From Saccoglossus kowalevskii (Eukaryota; Hemichordata; Enteropneusta; Harrimaniidae): a stretch of 47,256 nt of DNA. The translations under genes and the position numbers were made by a program. Location of the stretch: NCBI RefSeq assembly GCF_000003605.2, contig NW_003129364.1:53032-100287 (forward strand), written 5' to 3'. Shown in pieces: positions 18,321 to 46,927 of this stretch. Below the pieces are notes generated by a model. That model had not been told where the DNA came from. It did no database searches and saw only the letters and a list, made by a program, of their open reading frames with translations. How positions within the stretch are numbered: position 1 is the first letter of the stretch; every line of letters starts with the position of its first letter.

Positions 18321-18959
18321 CAACCTACGCACTTGCTCGGTTGTGATGATGTCAGAGCCGCAAAGCAGGATAAAAATAGGAGCTAATGGCCGACGCTGAT
18401 TGGTCATCGATCGACTTGCCTAGTTAATATTCAAATGAGTTGACACAATGAATGGGAAACGCTGAGATCGTGGTCGTCATCAGTTGAGGATACGTAGGCT
18501 AGTACTTTAGACGTTGGTTTATTTCGCTCGTGTATGCAGACACGACCCAGCTTTCTGCGCCTCTGCAGTGGACTGACAACGAGTGCGTTTGTTATTATTT
18601 GTCCCTTCCTATATGTTTGGTATATGTGTGTGGGTTGTAACGTACAGCCCGTGTTTCTTTCCCACTTATATATGTAAAAGTTAACCTTGCTCGCCGCATC
18701 TCATATACTTAGGCGCATGGTATCTCTGTTTTCAACACCTGTTTGAGTTTTTCTTTTAGTTCCACCGTGTTAGGTCTCTTAACTTTAATTTTCATGTAAT
18801 ATTTTTTGCAAGCAGCTTTCGCGGTTGTTTGTATGTTTGTTCATCGTTACATGTTTGCTTCATGATTGTGAGTAAGATTTAACTGTTGGCATAACCAGTG
18901 CATTTAAGTTTCTGAATATCTGTTTTACTCATTGTCGTTATTTTCTTTTCTTTCACCAG

Positions 18960-22891
<3,932 letters not shown>

Positions 22892-30054: not shown

Positions 30055-30507
30055 CTAGTCGTCTTTTGTTGCTTCGTGTAAGTACGCGATAAGGTCTATT
30101 CTGTCTTGCTTTGATGGCAATGGTTTGAAAAACGTCTTGGTCCCAGGTACGTAGTTCCCTGGATCGGCCAAGTACTCATCCAGGGTCTGATCGGTCCATG
30201 TGATATCTTTCTCCGTCCACCGATCGAGGTCACGATAGGTGAAACCTTCCAACTCCCCAGCTTTGCGATTGAATAGATTCTGCAAATTCGGTCCGAATTT
30301 GTGTTCGCCTCCCTTTTCTATAGTATGACAGTGTTCACATTCTCGAACGAAGACGTCTCGACCTCTCTGGGGGTCGGACGGTTCCACGACTTCGTCTTTC
30401 TTTGATAGGCTATCTTGTTGGTATTTCGATATTTCAGTCTTTGCCTTGTTTTTTAACTTGTCCAGCTCTGCTGTTGCCTCCGGTACGGATGATGGCTTCT
30501 GTCCCAT
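30055..30507 (-). CDS. divergent cytochrome c lacking the axial methionine, with N-myristoylation motif
   Basis: The protein has 150 residues in one exon. The start is the first ATG after an in-frame TGA at 30568-30570, with A at -3 and G at +4. Residues 1-43 form a charged extension absent from ordinary cytochrome c. The fold follows: haem site C57-E-H-C60-H61, P73, R81, Y91, W104 (Trp59 of horse), Y112 (Tyr67) and F127 (Phe82). At the Met80 position the sequence is PGTKT, so Thr125 replaces the axial ligand, and no Met occurs after residue 1. Horse lysines 8, 13, 72, 73, 86 and 87, which dock oxidase or Apaf-1, correspond to D51, E56, G118, N119, P131 and S132. The N-terminus MGQKPSS fits the N-myristoyltransferase consensus. 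Haem attachment is expected. Normal Met-ligated electron transfer is not; peroxidase-like or Lys-ligated haem is possible. The open frame argues against a decayed pseudogene. Confidence 0.9.
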   Translation of the reverse strand: MGQKPSSVPEATAELDKLKNKAKTEISKYQQDSLSKKDEVVEPSDPQRGRDVFVRECEHCHTIEKGGEHKFGPNLQNLFNRKAGELEGFTYRDLDRWTEKDITWTDQTLDEYLADPGNYVPGTKTFFKPLPSKQDRIDLIAYLHEATKDD

Positions 30508-31166
30508 ATTGACGTATTGCGTGATTAAATGCAGAATAAACAACGCACTGCGATTACACAGTCCCGGTCATTCACTACAAACGATTTACGGGCGTCGATT
30601 CACAAACAGGACGCGCTATTATGATGACCTCCAGTGACCCCAGTATTGAAGAACCTCTAAGCCAGTGTAGCTGACCAAAAAATTCCCTCGAACTAACTAA
30701 AAAACAAACAAAAAGGAGTTACAACATTGTATAATAGAATATAATTTAAGTAAAATAGATAAAGAATTTCCTCCATAATTAAATCTGTCAAAATACGTAA
30801 TTTTGCTAACTTGTAGACAGTTCTGTTATAACTTAGAGAGTACAATCCCACAATGCAATATTCCGCGGACAGGCAGACAGACGAGAATAACTTCCGTGTT
30901 TACGTTGGTTTTAGTGATGGATGTTTTTTATTGTGTTAATACATAGATCGATACGTGCTCTTGGATCCACTGGTATTTCTGATCAAAATTATGGAATACC
31001 AGATATAGAAAATGAGTGGCGAATGAGTGAAAGGTTAGGTAACGAAAGTCGTTCGCGGAAGTTGATATCTGCATCAGGTCATAATTCATTTATTTACGTG
31101 TGTGACATCTTACATGCATGTCTATGATACAATTATACTGTATCGGCAACATTTAATTCGTGTGCC
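30508..31166. promoter_or_regulatory. divergent (bidirectional) promoter region
   Basis: The 659 bp between two divergent start codons should hold both promoters. A CRE-like TGACGTAT is near 30511, just upstream of the cytochrome c ATG. An ETS-type CTTCCG is near 30891. No TATA box is evident at a suitable distance. Upstream ATGs in the right half, such as the short frame at 30921-31127, are probably 5' UTR or intron. Confidence 0.4.
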
Positions 31167-31650: not shown

Positions 31651-32253
31651 TAGCCCTGCGTACAGTGCTGTGTGTACGGGGACGCGTTCAGTTGATAGAT
31701 GTCCCCACCACAGCCCTGCGTACAGTGCTGTGTGTACGGGGACGCGTTCAGTTGATAGATGTCCCCACCACAGCCCTGCGTACCTCCATAGACAAAGTTC
31801 GGGAGCACACCGTAATTGGTGCGCAAGTTAAAAATAAGTAGTTTCCCAGCCGAAATCGGTTGAAATGACGATAGTTATCCGTAACAACCATTACAAAGTT
31901 ATCTGAAACTGAAATGTCTTTAAATAACAACTAGTAAAGACGGACAAATTGTAAACGCGTAGGTACCGGAGGAATTATCCACCAAACGCCGCCATTTTTA
32001 ATTTCATTCACGCGAGAGATTACGTTTGTTTTTAGGGCAAAGTAGCCGATTTCATCCACAATTGGACTCCGAACTGGGAGTTCTGGATATATCTGGTAAT
32101 CGATCATTATTTTTGGTACCTGGGCATGTTATTTCATTAAAAAGTTATATTTTTCAAAGTCCCGGACTTTGTCTATGGAGGTACGCAGGGCTGTGGTGGG
32201 GACATCTACCAACCGAACGCGTCCCCGTACACACAGCACTGTACGCAGGGCTA
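31651..32253. mobile_element. foldback element with long terminal inverted repeats
   Basis: The left arm (31651-31806) and right arm (about 32159-32253) are inverted repeats beginning TAGCCCTGCGTACAGTGCTG and diverging near CATAGACAAAG. TA dinucleotides bound both ends. In the left arm a 60-bp unit is duplicated exactly (31652-31711 and 31712-31771), so it is longer than the right arm. The interior has only short frames. It is a non-autonomous element of TA-target type, family uncertain. Confidence 0.75.
31652..31771. repeat. two perfect 60-bp tandem units
   Basis: Two consecutive 60-bp units running from AGCCCTGCGTACAGTG to GTCCCCACCAC are identical. The downstream inverted arm has a single unit, so the duplication postdates formation of the inverted repeat. 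Confidence 0.93.
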
Positions 32254-33077
32254 CCAGCGGGGCTGGAAGTCTTAGAAATATCGCTCACTTTGTAATAGAA
32301 TAGAGATGAACCAAGTTAGTTATTCCTGAGTCCGTATTATACTGGTAAAGATCTTCCTGAGTTCGCATTATACTGATAAAAGGCTCGGGCGGGGCGCGGC
32401 ACGCGTTAAAAAACAACTGTCACGCCATGAAAGTGGTGGACCGCAGCGAGCCGCGCTCGGCAGACGACATTCTGCCAGTCAAAAAAGTGACGCCTGGTCG
32501 TTGCCATGGTAAACGGCGCCCGGAAGCCTGTGGATGACCAAGAACCGACACAGTTCCCTACTGTCATATAACGCCTGACGCTGGACGTGATGTGGTTTTG
32601 AACCATTTCTAAGAAAGAAAACATTTCAAACACAAGAGCCACAAGAGCGTTGAAAAGCATCCAGTTTTTTGTGTCGGTGGTCGGATACAAATTGAATGTG
32701 GTATCAAAGCCAGTAAAACGTTTGGAGGAGAAAGTGATCACGGCAAGCACATTAACTTGTTCCAGCGCTGGTCAATGTGCTACATGCAGTCCATGATTGA
32801 ATCCGGGGATTGAATCCTATGGGAGGCGTAATTCAGGGGCGGATCGATATCTAGGATTCTGGAATAGGGGGGGGGGGCGATAAGTTGGCCTAAGGCCAAG
32901 TTCACGAGCGCCGATGGCTCGAAGCAATGTTGGTTGTTAAAGAGGGGGGCGGCCCCTCGGCCCCCATCTATTAAATCCGCCAATGTAATTGGCCTTCTAA
33001 AGCAAACATACGTATTGTGAAGTCTTTTCATCCAATAAAATATTGGCTGAAGCAGTTATATGAGTGTTTCTGATTTT
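32254..33077. repeat. about 0.8-kb duplicated block, copy 1
   Basis: From about 32266 (GGAAGTCTTAGAAATATCGC) to the N gap the sequence is nearly identical to 33491-34297, in the same orientation. Differences are a 9-bp indel near 32640, a 13-bp insertion in copy 2 near 33754-33766, and homopolymer length changes. It contains the small transposon at 32834-32985. The minus-strand frame 32406-32750 is shifted between copies by these indels and is not called. Confidence 0.85.
32834..32985. mobile_element. 152-bp non-autonomous transposon, 5-bp target duplication (copy 1)
   Basis: The left end is CAGGGGCGGATC and the right end in reverse is CATTGGCGGATT. TAATT flanks both sides (32829-32833 and 32986-32990). 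The ends match those of the element in NR4A intron 5, and the 5-bp duplication length is the same. It is internal to the duplicated block. Confidence 0.75.
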
Positions 33078-33474: not shown

Positions 33475-34297
33475 GGCAACCAGCGAGGCTGGAAGTCCTA
33501 GAAATATCGCTCACTTTGTAATAGAATAGAGATGAACCAAGTTAGTTATTCCTGAGTTCGCATTATACTGGTAAAGATCTTCCTGAGTTTGCATTATACT
33601 GATAAAAGGCTCGGGCGGGGCGCGGTACGCGTTAAAAAACAACTGTCACGCCATGAAAGTGGTGGACCGCAGCGAGCAGCGCTCGGCAGACGACATTCTG
33701 CCAGTCAAAAAAGTGACGCCTGGTCGTTGCCATGGTAAACGGCGCCCGGAAGTCTCAATTGGCGGCCTGTGGATGACCAAGAACCGACACAGTTCCCTAA
33801 AGTCATATAACGCCTGACGTCGGACGTGATGTGGTTTTGAACCATTTCTAAGAAAGCAAACATTTCAAACACAAGAGCGTTGAAAAGCATCCATTTTTTT
33901 TTTGTGTCGGTGGTCGGATACAAATTGAATGTGGTATCAAAGCCAGTAAAACGTTTGGAGGAGAAAGTGATCACGGCAAGCACATTAACTTGTTCCAGCG
34001 CTGGTCAATGTGCTACATGCAGTCCATGATTGAATCCTGTGGGAGGCGTAATTCAGGGGCGGATCGATATCTAGGATTCTGGAATAGGGGGGCGATAAGT
34101 TGGCCTAAGGCCAAGTTCACGAGCGCCGATGGCTCGAAGCAACGTTGGTTGTTAAAAATAGGGGGGCGGCGGCCCCTCGGCCCCCATCTATTAAATCCGC
34201 CAATGTAATTGGCCTTCTAAAGCAAACATACGTATTGTGAAGTCTTTTCATCCAATAAAATATTGGCTGAAGCAGTTATATGAGTGTCTCTGATTTT
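33475..34297. repeat. about 0.8-kb duplicated block, copy 2
   Basis: This is the direct-orientation partner of 32254-33077 (offset about 1225 bp including the N gap). It continues past the point where copy 1 is cut by the gap. The second copy of the 152-bp transposon lies inside. Confidence 0.85.
34054..34205. mobile_element. 152-bp non-autonomous transposon, 5-bp target duplication (copy 2)
   Basis: It has the same ends and the same TAATT target duplication (34049-34053 and 34206-34210) as the element at 32834. It was therefore inherited through the block duplication and not inserted separately. Confidence 0.75.
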
Positions 34298-35968: not shown

Positions 35969-36555
35969 GTTTGCTCCCATACATGTGTGCATGTACGTTT
36001 ACAAGTGGGGCAGTTTATACTTATAAACTTAGATTGATTGCTAATCATGTTTGATCATACACGGTTTGCCCTAACATTCATGCATATGTACGTTTGCTAT
36101 CTAGGTTGAAATCTAAGTTGATTTTTAACCATCCAACTGTGCTAGATTCAGGGCAGTGGTTGATTCAGGTTTGAATTGTACAAAGTATGAAAAGTGATGG
36201 GAGAGCTGTACACTTTGGACTATTTATGATAATTGAAGAATACAGTATCAATCAATATGTTTTGTTAGCCAGCATGTTATTTCAATATACTGTATTTTAG
36301 TAATAAAGTGGAGTAATTTAACAGGAGCTATATTTTAAAAAGATTTTTCACTTTTTCTGGAGATACATACATTGAACAAAATTTGACAAAATCGCATGTA
36401 CTACAGGAATTGCCAAAAATGTCCCCACCCCCAATTGCAGATAATCTTAAGTTACATTGATGCAGATTTGTTTTTTTGATAAGCCTGGCTCTGTGTATTG
36501 TGTTATTAAATTATGATCAATATTTACCTTATTTAATTTGTGTTTGTTTTTTCAG
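35969..36555 (+). other. non-coding, ends in the acceptor of the LRR exon
   Basis: AT-rich sequence ending in a strong polypyrimidine tract and acceptor (GTTTGTTTTTTCAG, AG at 36554-36555). It is probably an intron of the LRR gene. The upstream exon was not identified. Confidence 0.5.
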
Positions 36556-36556
36556 A

Positions 36557-38248
36557 ATGATTCCATCTTTAAGTGACCTGTGCCTCAAGACAGTTAGCTG
36601 CCATCTTTCTGTATTACACCAAGAAGTCAGAGAGTTATTACCAACTCTGTTTAAAGAAGCACTGTTACAGAGATTGGCTGACCATGACATGTTCACACAG
36701 GAATACCTGCCATACATTGAAAAGGCCTTGTTTGTGCCAGAGCTGAAATCACTGGACTTTTCTAGCTGCAACCAAATTAATGACAATTTTTTAAAACGTC
36801 TTGCAGATTGTGGATGCAAATTGAAATCTTTTTATATAGGTGACAATGTCAGTACTGACGGTATTACTGCATTCTTAAATCAACAGAATAAACTTACTGA
36901 TTTGAAGTTAATTATCAGTATTATAGATTTGGGGTTTCTTGAGCGGCTTAAAATACCTAATCTCAGAAAAGTGGCACTCAAGATATATGGCTGCTGGACT
37001 GCCAGTGGATACACATGTTGTTCAGAAATACCAAGGGCTCCATTGAAATGTCTCATCCCATTTGTTTCTCATCATGAACTATTGAATGATTTCTCGCTTA
37101 CTTGCGACACAACAGCAATGTTCTTGGGTGATTCTTACATTGTTGAGATAATTACTAGGCTTGGTGAACATCTGAAACATTTTCAGATTGACGGATTGAT
37201 TCCACTGCCTCCTGCATGCATCCATGCTATTGCAAACCACTGTCCAAATATACAGGAACTTAAATTGCAGTCTTATCTGAAATCGAAAGGTGTCAATGAC
37301 AGTGATTTGAAGTGTCTTGCAAACAGCTGTCCAAAGCTGGAAATATTAACACTGTCATCAATCGTGAGCTGTGCAGATGCTAGCTGCTTCCCATCAACGC
37401 TGAATCGGCTCAGTCTATATCCCCGAATTGATGACAGAATCATGCCTCTTTCCCCTTCTTCCTTGAGCTCATTGATAAATCTGGAATACTTGGAGCTTCC
37501 AATGTGGTATTTTACAGCAGATACTGTGTATTCTGTGCTGTCGAGAATAGGAGCCCAGCTGAAAGGGATTCATTTTTTGAACACCAAACAGAAGAACCAA
37601 GATAAAACATTGGAGTGTGCAGTTGTTGACGCAATTGTAAAGTTCTGTTATTCTTTGAAAAGTTTGGAACTATGTTGTTACCATGCTGAGTCAATGGAGG
37701 GACTCCTGTCACTCTTTGTTGATGCTGATAGAGCAATGCGATTATGCCGATTCTGTCTTTCCTGCGACAAGCTAATGTTAGATGTTTCACATATCATCCA
37801 AAATGCCAAACTGTTGCTGTTTGCTTTAACAAATTCGTGTGAAAATATACAAGAATTAGACGTTGACAGCAGGTTTGTTGATGACATGATTTTGATCAAA
37901 CTAGCCATGAATTGTCCTCGGCTTTCTCGTTTGGTGGTACGACCAGCTGGAAGACGCCATGTTTATAAAGATAAGATTACCGATGCTGCAGTATGTAAAT
38001 TAGCTGCCAATTGTCCACTGGAAGAGTTATCACTTATTGAATCGTCTCGCTACTCTCATTTATCAGGCTTTTCTTTGAAAGCGCTTGCAAATTGTTGCCC
38101 GTCATTACAGTCTCTGAGTTTCACCTCTGGTTTCAAGTTTTCTTCCAAAGTGTTTGAGTGCCTGAAGAATTCCTGTGTCAACAGAGTTTCTATCAATGTT
38201 GAATACGATGCCAGTGGTCAAGGTGCTGGGATCCATATTACATCATAA
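36557..38248 (+). CDS. leucine-rich-repeat protein, FBXL/AMN1-like
   Basis: The protein has 563 residues in one exon from ATG 36557, which lies one base after a strong acceptor. The gene therefore has an upstream, probably non-coding, exon. The extended frame upstream of the acceptor is intron. Residues 1-60 form a helical, F-box-like N-terminus (SLSDLCLKTVSCHLS, then LLPTLFKEALLQRLAD). From about residue 60 to 545 come irregular cysteine-containing LRRs, with units such as CPNIQELKLQS, CPKLEILTLSS, LINLEYLELP, CPRLSRLVVRP, CPLEELSLIES and CPSLQSLSF. The aligned NCP/SCP step of these repeats is typical of FBXL substrate receptors and AMN1. No signal peptide or membrane segment was seen. A role as an adaptor of a Skp1-Cullin1 ligase is inferred from the fold only; the F-box itself is not a clear match. 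Confidence 0.85.
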   Translation: MIPSLSDLCLKTVSCHLSVLHQEVRELLPTLFKEALLQRLADHDMFTQEYLPYIEKALFVPELKSLDFSSCNQINDNFLKRLADCGCKLKSFYIGDNVSTDGITAFLNQQNKLTDLKLIISIIDLGFLERLKIPNLRKVALKIYGCWTASGYTCCSEIPRAPLKCLIPFVSHHELLNDFSLTCDTTAMFLGDSYIVEIITRLGEHLKHFQIDGLIPLPPACIHAIANHCPNIQELKLQSYLKSKGVNDSDLKCLANSCPKLEILTLSSIVSCADASCFPSTLNRLSLYPRIDDRIMPLSPSSLSSLINLEYLELPMWYFTADTVYSVLSRIGAQLKGIHFLNTKQKNQDKTLECAVVDAIVKFCYSLKSLELCCYHAESMEGLLSLFVDADRAMRLCRFCLSCDKLMLDVSHIIQNAKLLLFALTNSCENIQELDVDSRFVDDMILIKLAMNCPRLSRLVVRPAGRRHVYKDKITDAAVCKLAANCPLEELSLIESSRYSHLSGFSLKALANCCPSLQSLSFTSGFKFSSKVFECLKNSCVNRVSINVEYDASGQGAGIHITS

Positions 38249-46016: not shown

Positions 46017-46705
46017 TTATTTTGCTTTATCTTTCATAGTCCACAACGGGTCCAGTAAACTTAATGGATCAGCCGGGTCTTTCTCTGTACCAAGTGAATC
46101 CTTTCTTTCATCAAAAGAAGCTTTAGAGACTCTGGGTTGATGTTTTGGACTGGTGTTGAGGGTGAATGTTGTTGGATCCAGAGTCGCCAATAGAGTTGAT
46201 GGTGCCTCAGAAACCAGTGACTGACCGTTCTGATTCTGTAATGTTTCGTTGATGGTACCAAGTTGCTGGGCAGTACCAGACAATAGAGATGAGTTACTGG
46301 ACAGGGACTCTAAGGAATCATGTCTTCCAAGGTTTGGGTTAAGCTGCTGTGCTGAACATGGGTTGTGCGCTGGTGAAGGTGGGAAACTAGCATTACCATG
46401 GCTGCTATGAGAGTCTTGTGAATTTGTACGCGATAGGTGGGTATGCATCATGTGATCACTTTGAATATCAACCATCTGATTGGTTATTTCAGTCACATGA
46501 CCCAGCTCTTCATTTTGATAGGTTACAGGCTGTTGCATATCTTGATTGTCGTTGGTTATTTCCGGTTTTGGTTTGACTGTCATCTGCGATATCTTTGACT
46601 GTATATCTTGCAATGAACTGGTGCCCATGATGAAATCAAACGAGTTCCTAGCATGCACCTGGGGATCAATACCAGGAGTGGCTGGCTTTCTTAAAAATAT
46701 CCCCC
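46017..46705 (-). CDS. PTPN23/HD-PTP, last coding exon (C-terminal tail)
   Basis: After acceptor TTATTCTTCAG (AG at 46706-46707) the exon supplies two bases to a split Arg codon and then 228 codons to the TAA at 46017-46019. The tail is Ser/Asn/Gln-rich. It carries the conserved landmarks of the HD-PTP C-terminus as I know it from human: SLQDIQSKISQMTVKPK, LLATLDPTTFTLNTS, and the terminal DPLSLLDPLWTMKDKAK block. HD-PTP is a Bro1-domain protein that works with ESCRT on endosomes to sort ubiquitinated receptors. The tail is the PEST-like regulatory part and binds no catalytic site. The extended frame above 46705 is intron. Confidence 0.9.
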
Positions 46706-46927
46706 CTGAAGAATAAACAACAACAGTGGTTTGCAACACAAGACACAAAGCAATAAACGCTAAGAGCCAACAGAACCAGGAGTAATCTATTATTCTCAGC
46801 TGCTATATCACAGCCTTGGTTGTGCCACAATTTCACAAGGACAAATTTTTGTTTGTTTTGCATGCAAGTATGGGAAAACCGATATATTCCTAGTATTGTA
46901 AGTTTTACAAGAAGATAAAGGTCTTAC

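Follow-up and report, generated by a model that had tools for sequence, protein, structure and literature searches.

To our knowledge, cytochrome c is among the most constrained proteins, and the axial Met80 is regarded as virtually invariant. Bacterial cytochromes of the cy and c552 type have their cytochrome c domain tethered to the membrane at the N-terminus, by means of a transmembrane helix, and keep the axial Met. Loss of the axial Met is documented for the horse M80A mutant, whose ferric form is reported to bind hydroxide and whose ferrous form binds O2, presumably stabilised by Tyr67 (PMC10041640). According to the same source, peroxidase activity rises once Met80 leaves the iron, and the Y67H/M80A double mutant has an only slightly raised peroxidase activity. 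The K72E exchange alone raises the peroxidase activity of cytochrome c as well (PMC11311590).

Attachment of the haem by holocytochrome c synthase (HCCS) is described as requiring the histidine of the CXXCH motif and not the axial Met (PMC4158909). The recognition features given there are an aromatic residue equivalent to yeast F15 and its separation from CXXCH by three residues, with acceptance by HCCS also depending on factors besides the Phe and the spacing. The same account reports strong conservation of a basic residue immediately preceding CXXCH, and that in bacterial cytochromes glutamates near the N-terminus had to be replaced for acceptance by HCCS. As to lipid anchoring, human HCCS and NDUFB7 are listed as N-myristoylated mitochondrial proteins (PMC10752898), and in the case of yeast Mic19 myristoylation is reported to overcome an import block imposed by the protein's own N-terminal domain (PMC6362269).

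The window analysed here, a stretch of 47,256 nucleotides from the hemichordate Saccoglossus kowalevskii, contains a cytochrome c paralogue. The coordinates, strand and frame of the initial annotation proved accurate: the minus strand reads from 30507 to 30055 as 150 uninterrupted codons plus a stop codon. The parts of the gene are compiled in Table 1.

Table 1. Parts of the cytochrome c paralogue gene and its surroundings; positions are those of the window.
Feature	Position	Strand	Basis
Cytochrome c paralogue CDS, 150 aa + stop, single intronless open frame	30055..30507	-	Translation; phmmer E 1.8e-33 vs horse cytochrome c
N-terminal extension, 43 residues: MGQKPSS start and predicted helix (residues ~8-34)	30379..30507	-	Motif check and both structure models
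Haem-lyase recognition spacing: Phe53 and three residues preceding the haem site (FVRE)	30340..30351	-	Horse comparison; rule as given in PMC4158909
Haem attachment site CEHCH, residues 57-61	30325..30339	-	Translation, horse comparison
Remodelled haem-crevice loop NYVPGTKTFFK, residues 118-128 = horse 73-83	30124..30156	-	Horse comparison
Codon 125, ACG = Thr at the place of axial Met80	30133..30135	-	Horse comparison
AATAAA, poly(A)-signal-like, ~334 bases past the stop codon	29716..29721	-	Pattern only
Pyrimidine tract + AG, weak candidate for the 3' splice site of a 5'-UTR intron	30697..30704	-	Pattern only

Several other elements were seen in the window, and an Rfam search at the gathering threshold returned nothing. 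Near the cytochrome gene, two near-alike open frames starting PALEQVNVLAVITFSSKRFTG (32409-32771 and 33708-34004, minus strand) are probably repeat copies, and a perfect tandem repeat with 2.2 copies of a 60-base unit lies at 31652-31783. A split nuclear receptor gene, which we take to resemble NR4A, occupies 18908-22888 on the plus strand, with the two halves of the zf-C4 domain in separate open frames, followed at a distance by a Hormone_recep match; between its exons, a 21-base unit is repeated in 13 copies with 99% matches (21570-21843). An open frame of 595 codons at 36461-38245 (plus strand) has leucine-rich repeat character and a weak PF24758 match under the cut-off of that family, and another of 261 codons at 46020-46802 (minus strand) is Ser/Gln-rich by eye and has no Pfam match at E 0.01.

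By homology, the paralogue is a member of the cytochrome c family. It is identical to horse cytochrome c at 54 of 104 aligned residues (~52%), matches Pfam PF00034 (Cytochrom_C) with 35.9 bits at a curated cut-off of 21.3, and retrieves horse cytochrome c at E 1.8e-33 in a phmmer search against solved structures; among the best 60 of the 102 distinct sequences found there at E <= 0.001, animal cytochromes c rank highest. In common with respiratory cytochrome c (class I, PF00034; horse, yeast) it has CXXCH, the haem-lyase Phe with its spacing, the PGTK turn and the equivalents of Trp59, Tyr67 (Tyr112) and Phe82. The CEHCH haem site, which includes His61, and the three aromatic residues had already been recognised in the initial annotation and are evident in the alignment to horse. 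The same alignment bears out the reported replacement of Lys8, 13, 72, 73, 86 and 87 by D, E, G, N, P and S, as well as the presence of PGTKT in place of PGTKM: codon 125 (30133-30135), equivalent to horse Met80, is ACG for Thr, and the sole Met of the protein is residue 1. The accompanying statement that every respiratory cytochrome c has PGTKM was too broad, as a mitochondrial-type relative described below (L007) has PNTKM. The equivalents of Lys27, Lys79 (Lys124) and Lys88 are kept.

Further differences from respiratory cytochrome c came to light that the initial annotation did not contain. The cytochrome domain starts at about residue 44 and is preceded by an extension of 43 residues; relative to horse, two residues are inserted at paralogue residues 97-98. 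The domain is acidic, with a net charge of -6 and a pI of 5.2 versus +9 and 9.6 for horse, a shift of 15 units. Over horse positions 70-88, 11 of 19 residues are changed, those near codon 125 comprising M80T, I81F, A83K, G84P, I85L, K86P and K87S; loss of Met80 thus appears as part of a remodelled loop rather than as a lone change. With both the axial Met80 and the basic lysine docking face missing, the paralogue stands, on the evidence of its residues, outside the respiratory His/Met cytochrome c class.

The features pertinent to haem attachment are retained. The segment FVRECEHCH (residues 53-61) preserves the haem-lyase Phe, the three-residue spacing and CXXCH, and since Phe53, V-R-E and C57 are all kept, haem attachment is the best explanation for this segment; the haem is probably bound covalently, in the intermembrane space. 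The residue just before CXXCH is Glu56 (position 13), and Asp51 occupies position 8. These acidic residues may hinder recognition by HCCS.

The 43-residue extension, MGQKPSSVPEATAELDKLKNKAKTEISKYQQDSLSKKDEVVEP, begins with MGQKPSS, in which GQKPSS directly after Met1 fits the N-myristoylation pattern (PROSITE motif); 59 of 20000 shuffled tails bore a myristoylation motif after Met1. A tail helix is predicted for residues 10-34 by a single-sequence structure model and for residues 8-34 by a 3-row model, with low to middling confidence (mean pLDDT over residues 1-40, taken in four blocks of 10 residues, being 43-61 and 48-73, respectively). Over the whole protein, mean pLDDT was 40 for the single-sequence model and 60 when two rows from bacterial records were included, both models having been calculated without haem. 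The amphipathic moment of the tail helix was not significant, 278-907 of 5000 shuffles being equally high in six tests, and a tail helix lying on the membrane is therefore unsupported. A cytochrome c domain on a predicted N-terminal membrane tether recalls the bacterial cy and c552 type, from which the paralogue differs in the kind of tether and in the missing axial Met. An N-terminal Gly within a fitting motif is shared with the N-myristoylated intermembrane-space proteins Mic19/CHCHD3, NDUFB7 and HCCS (PMC6362269, PMC10752898), and with Mic19 the paralogue further shares an N-terminal segment ahead of the folded domain (PMC6362269). Mic19 and NDUFB7 contain CHCH domains and follow the Mia40 route, whereas the paralogue has a haem domain, and its myristoylation is only predicted. 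An extension at the N-terminus might impede import, a hindrance of the sort that myristoylation overcomes in yeast Mic19. Given the precedents of Mic19, HCCS and NDUFB7, the predicted lipid-anchored location in the intermembrane space is plausible.

Relatives were sought in other genomes and in the literature. With the paralogue as sole query, none were found in viral contigs (12 stretches) or prokaryote genome contigs (65 stretches); with an alignment of the paralogue and horse cytochrome c, none appeared in viral contigs (76 stretches), and three loci (L006, L007 and L008) were obtained from prokaryote genome contigs (114 stretches). The loci covering the Met80 position keep the Met, L006 as PGTKM and L007 as PNTKM; L008 ends before this position. 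L007 (1501-1878) is a cytochrome c gene labelled Verrucomicrobiaceae that is interrupted by a stop-bearing, intron-like stretch, and perhaps represents eukaryotic contamination of a metagenome bin. Among the open-access literature matches listed, none dealt with an animal cytochrome c that naturally lacks Met80 or bears a myristoyl anchor, though 'cytochrome c-like' database entries may exist.

The initial annotation had also suggested finding the ordinary Met80 cytochrome c of this genome. We queried the 572-Mb assembly with PF00034, the paralogue protein, full-length horse cytochrome c, an exon-2-like 48-mer, an exon-1-like 57-mer and three exact patterns, the protein and family search reading frames regardless of introns. 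No ordinary gene was found: the protein and family queries returned the paralogue locus only, save for one match of the exon-2-like 48-mer on contig C1359 (E 2.5, 38% identity, one internal stop). Searched without mismatches, the pattern YIPGTKM matched once (contig C3) and CAQCHT[V/I/M] twice (contig C1340), in each case with no cytochrome c around, and PGTKM-[I/V/M/F/TTR-Leu]-Phe had no match in the assembly. An aerobic animal must have cytochrome c1, and this control (PF02167, family mode) was missed in the same assembly too; in 14 control genomes the PF02167 search matched in 3. Absence of the ordinary gene from the search results thus means little, and we rejected the idea that the paralogue is the only cytochrome c of the genome.

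That the protein is not the respiratory carrier, as initially proposed, is well supported by the loss of Met80 and of six docking lysines, by the 15-unit charge shift and by the intact core detailed below. The reading we prefer, to which we assign a probability just short of even, is that of a working nuclear gene whose product, a non-respiratory cytochrome c tethered to a membrane and with its haem open or weakly ligated by Lys, serves as a peroxidase or ligand sensor; its expression, myristoylation, location, haem attachment, ligation and activity are what we infer for it. Gly2 would be N-myristoylated, which would aid entry into the mitochondrial intermembrane space, and the lipid and the helical tail would tie the protein to the membrane. 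Holocytochrome c synthase would read Phe-x3-CXXCH and attach the haem, with His61 as its proximal ligand. The distal side would then either be weakly closed by Lys124 or stay open, holding water or hydroxide that is hydrogen-bonded to Tyr112, so that the haem could bind peroxide, O2, NO or CO. The engineered M80A protein (PMC10041640), which likewise has lost the axial Met and kept Tyr67, can serve to model the open haem expected here, though it is a horse laboratory mutant with Ala at position 80 and an unaltered surface, whereas the paralogue is natural and has Thr. At the position of the K72E exchange the paralogue has Gly rather than Glu. As the face is acidic and the docking lysines are missing, the partners of such a membrane-bound peroxidase or redox/ligand sensor would not be complexes III and IV. 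A more specific version, which we regard as tentative and rather unlikely in its full detail, is a lipid-anchored protein dedicated to peroxidase activity or to O2/NO sensing in the intermembrane space, an evolved counterpart of the pro-apoptotic, cardiolipin-bound cytochrome c with dissociated Met80.

The preferred reading presupposes an intact gene. Most intronless cytochrome c copies in mammals are retropseudogenes, and with its coding part devoid of introns the paralogue might be a pseudogene or retrocopy that is still unbroken. When only stops were counted in simulations of neutral decay, frames stayed open in 219 of 2000 runs (to 65% identity) and 104 of 2000 (to 52%), which would leave some room for such a copy but is the less telling measure. 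With frameshifts included, 3 of 2000 and 2 of 2000 runs, respectively, remained unbroken (5/4000 together), and the paralogue has neither a stop nor a frameshift despite its ~52% identity to horse. Moreover, it keeps 27 of 28 core positions (a list of structural and haem-packing residues; the one miss is Gly34 to Asn) versus 27 of 75 elsewhere, while none of the 4000 runs retained 27 core residues, the maximum being 25 of 28. These simulations started from horse cytochrome c as ancestor, with indels assumed to occur at 0.1 per substitution, and their counts are therefore a guide rather than an exact probability. The N-terminal extension is open and in frame, and no poly(A) tract was seen beyond the AATAAA site. 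Codon usage backs the frame weakly, 56 of 2000 random 450-mers scoring equally high in a sampling that could include the training genes. The argument for selection from frame and core, already put forward in the initial annotation, is strengthened by these figures; the copy is apparently intact and under selection, and a surviving pseudogene has in our estimate a very small chance of being correct. Smaller still is the chance that the gene is ordinary except for a misassembled Thr codon. A single transition would convert ACG to ATG, but neither the acidic surface nor the 10 other substitutions among the 19 residues of positions 70-88 depend on that base, and with the whole loop around codon 125 remodelled, a one-base error is unlikely as the sole cause.

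If the gene works, its product might serve otherwise than proposed. If the haem site closes, Lys124 is the likeliest internal ligand, and its ligation could be stable: a membrane-tethered electron carrier with a six-coordinate haem held by this ligand of the alkaline form, of low potential, with a basic partner that is not cytochrome oxidase and no catalysis. Such a carrier would be in line with retention of the Lys79 equivalent and the PGTK turn despite the loss of Lys72 and Lys73, and with the new Lys128 at position 83; however, Lys ligation of cytochrome c haem normally demands rearrangement of the loop. We consider the carrier unlikely, though worth keeping in mind, and modestly favour a haem that is open or weakly closed and is used for catalysis or sensing over a stable Lys-His carrier. 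A tissue- or stage-specific cytochrome c (for instance sperm or larval) that still takes part in respiration or apoptosis is brought to mind by the mammalian testis-specific cytochrome c among the solved-structure matches and by the failure to find a second cytochrome c gene in the assembly. The latter point is uninformative in view of the missed cytochrome c1, and loss of Met80 and the six docking lysines together with the inverted charge makes this explanation improbable. We give an equally slight chance to a haem-free or cytosolic role as a myristoylated membrane adaptor built on the cytochrome c fold, for example an apoptosis decoy. The myristoylation-type N-terminus and the loss of Lys72 would suit it, and haem attachment may, by comparison with the bacterial cytochromes described in PMC4158909, be hindered by the acidic residues close to the haem-lyase signal; yet a haem-free protein would hardly account for the conservation of CXXCH, of the haem-lyase Phe and of 27 of 28 core residues.

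Should the preferred reading of a membrane-tethered, non-respiratory cytochrome c hold true, the paralogue would separate, in a natural protein, the needs of haem attachment and folding from those of respiration and apoptosis. It would also provide a natural protein for studying the five-coordinate or Lys-ligated state, which so far has been made by mutation or with cardiolipin.
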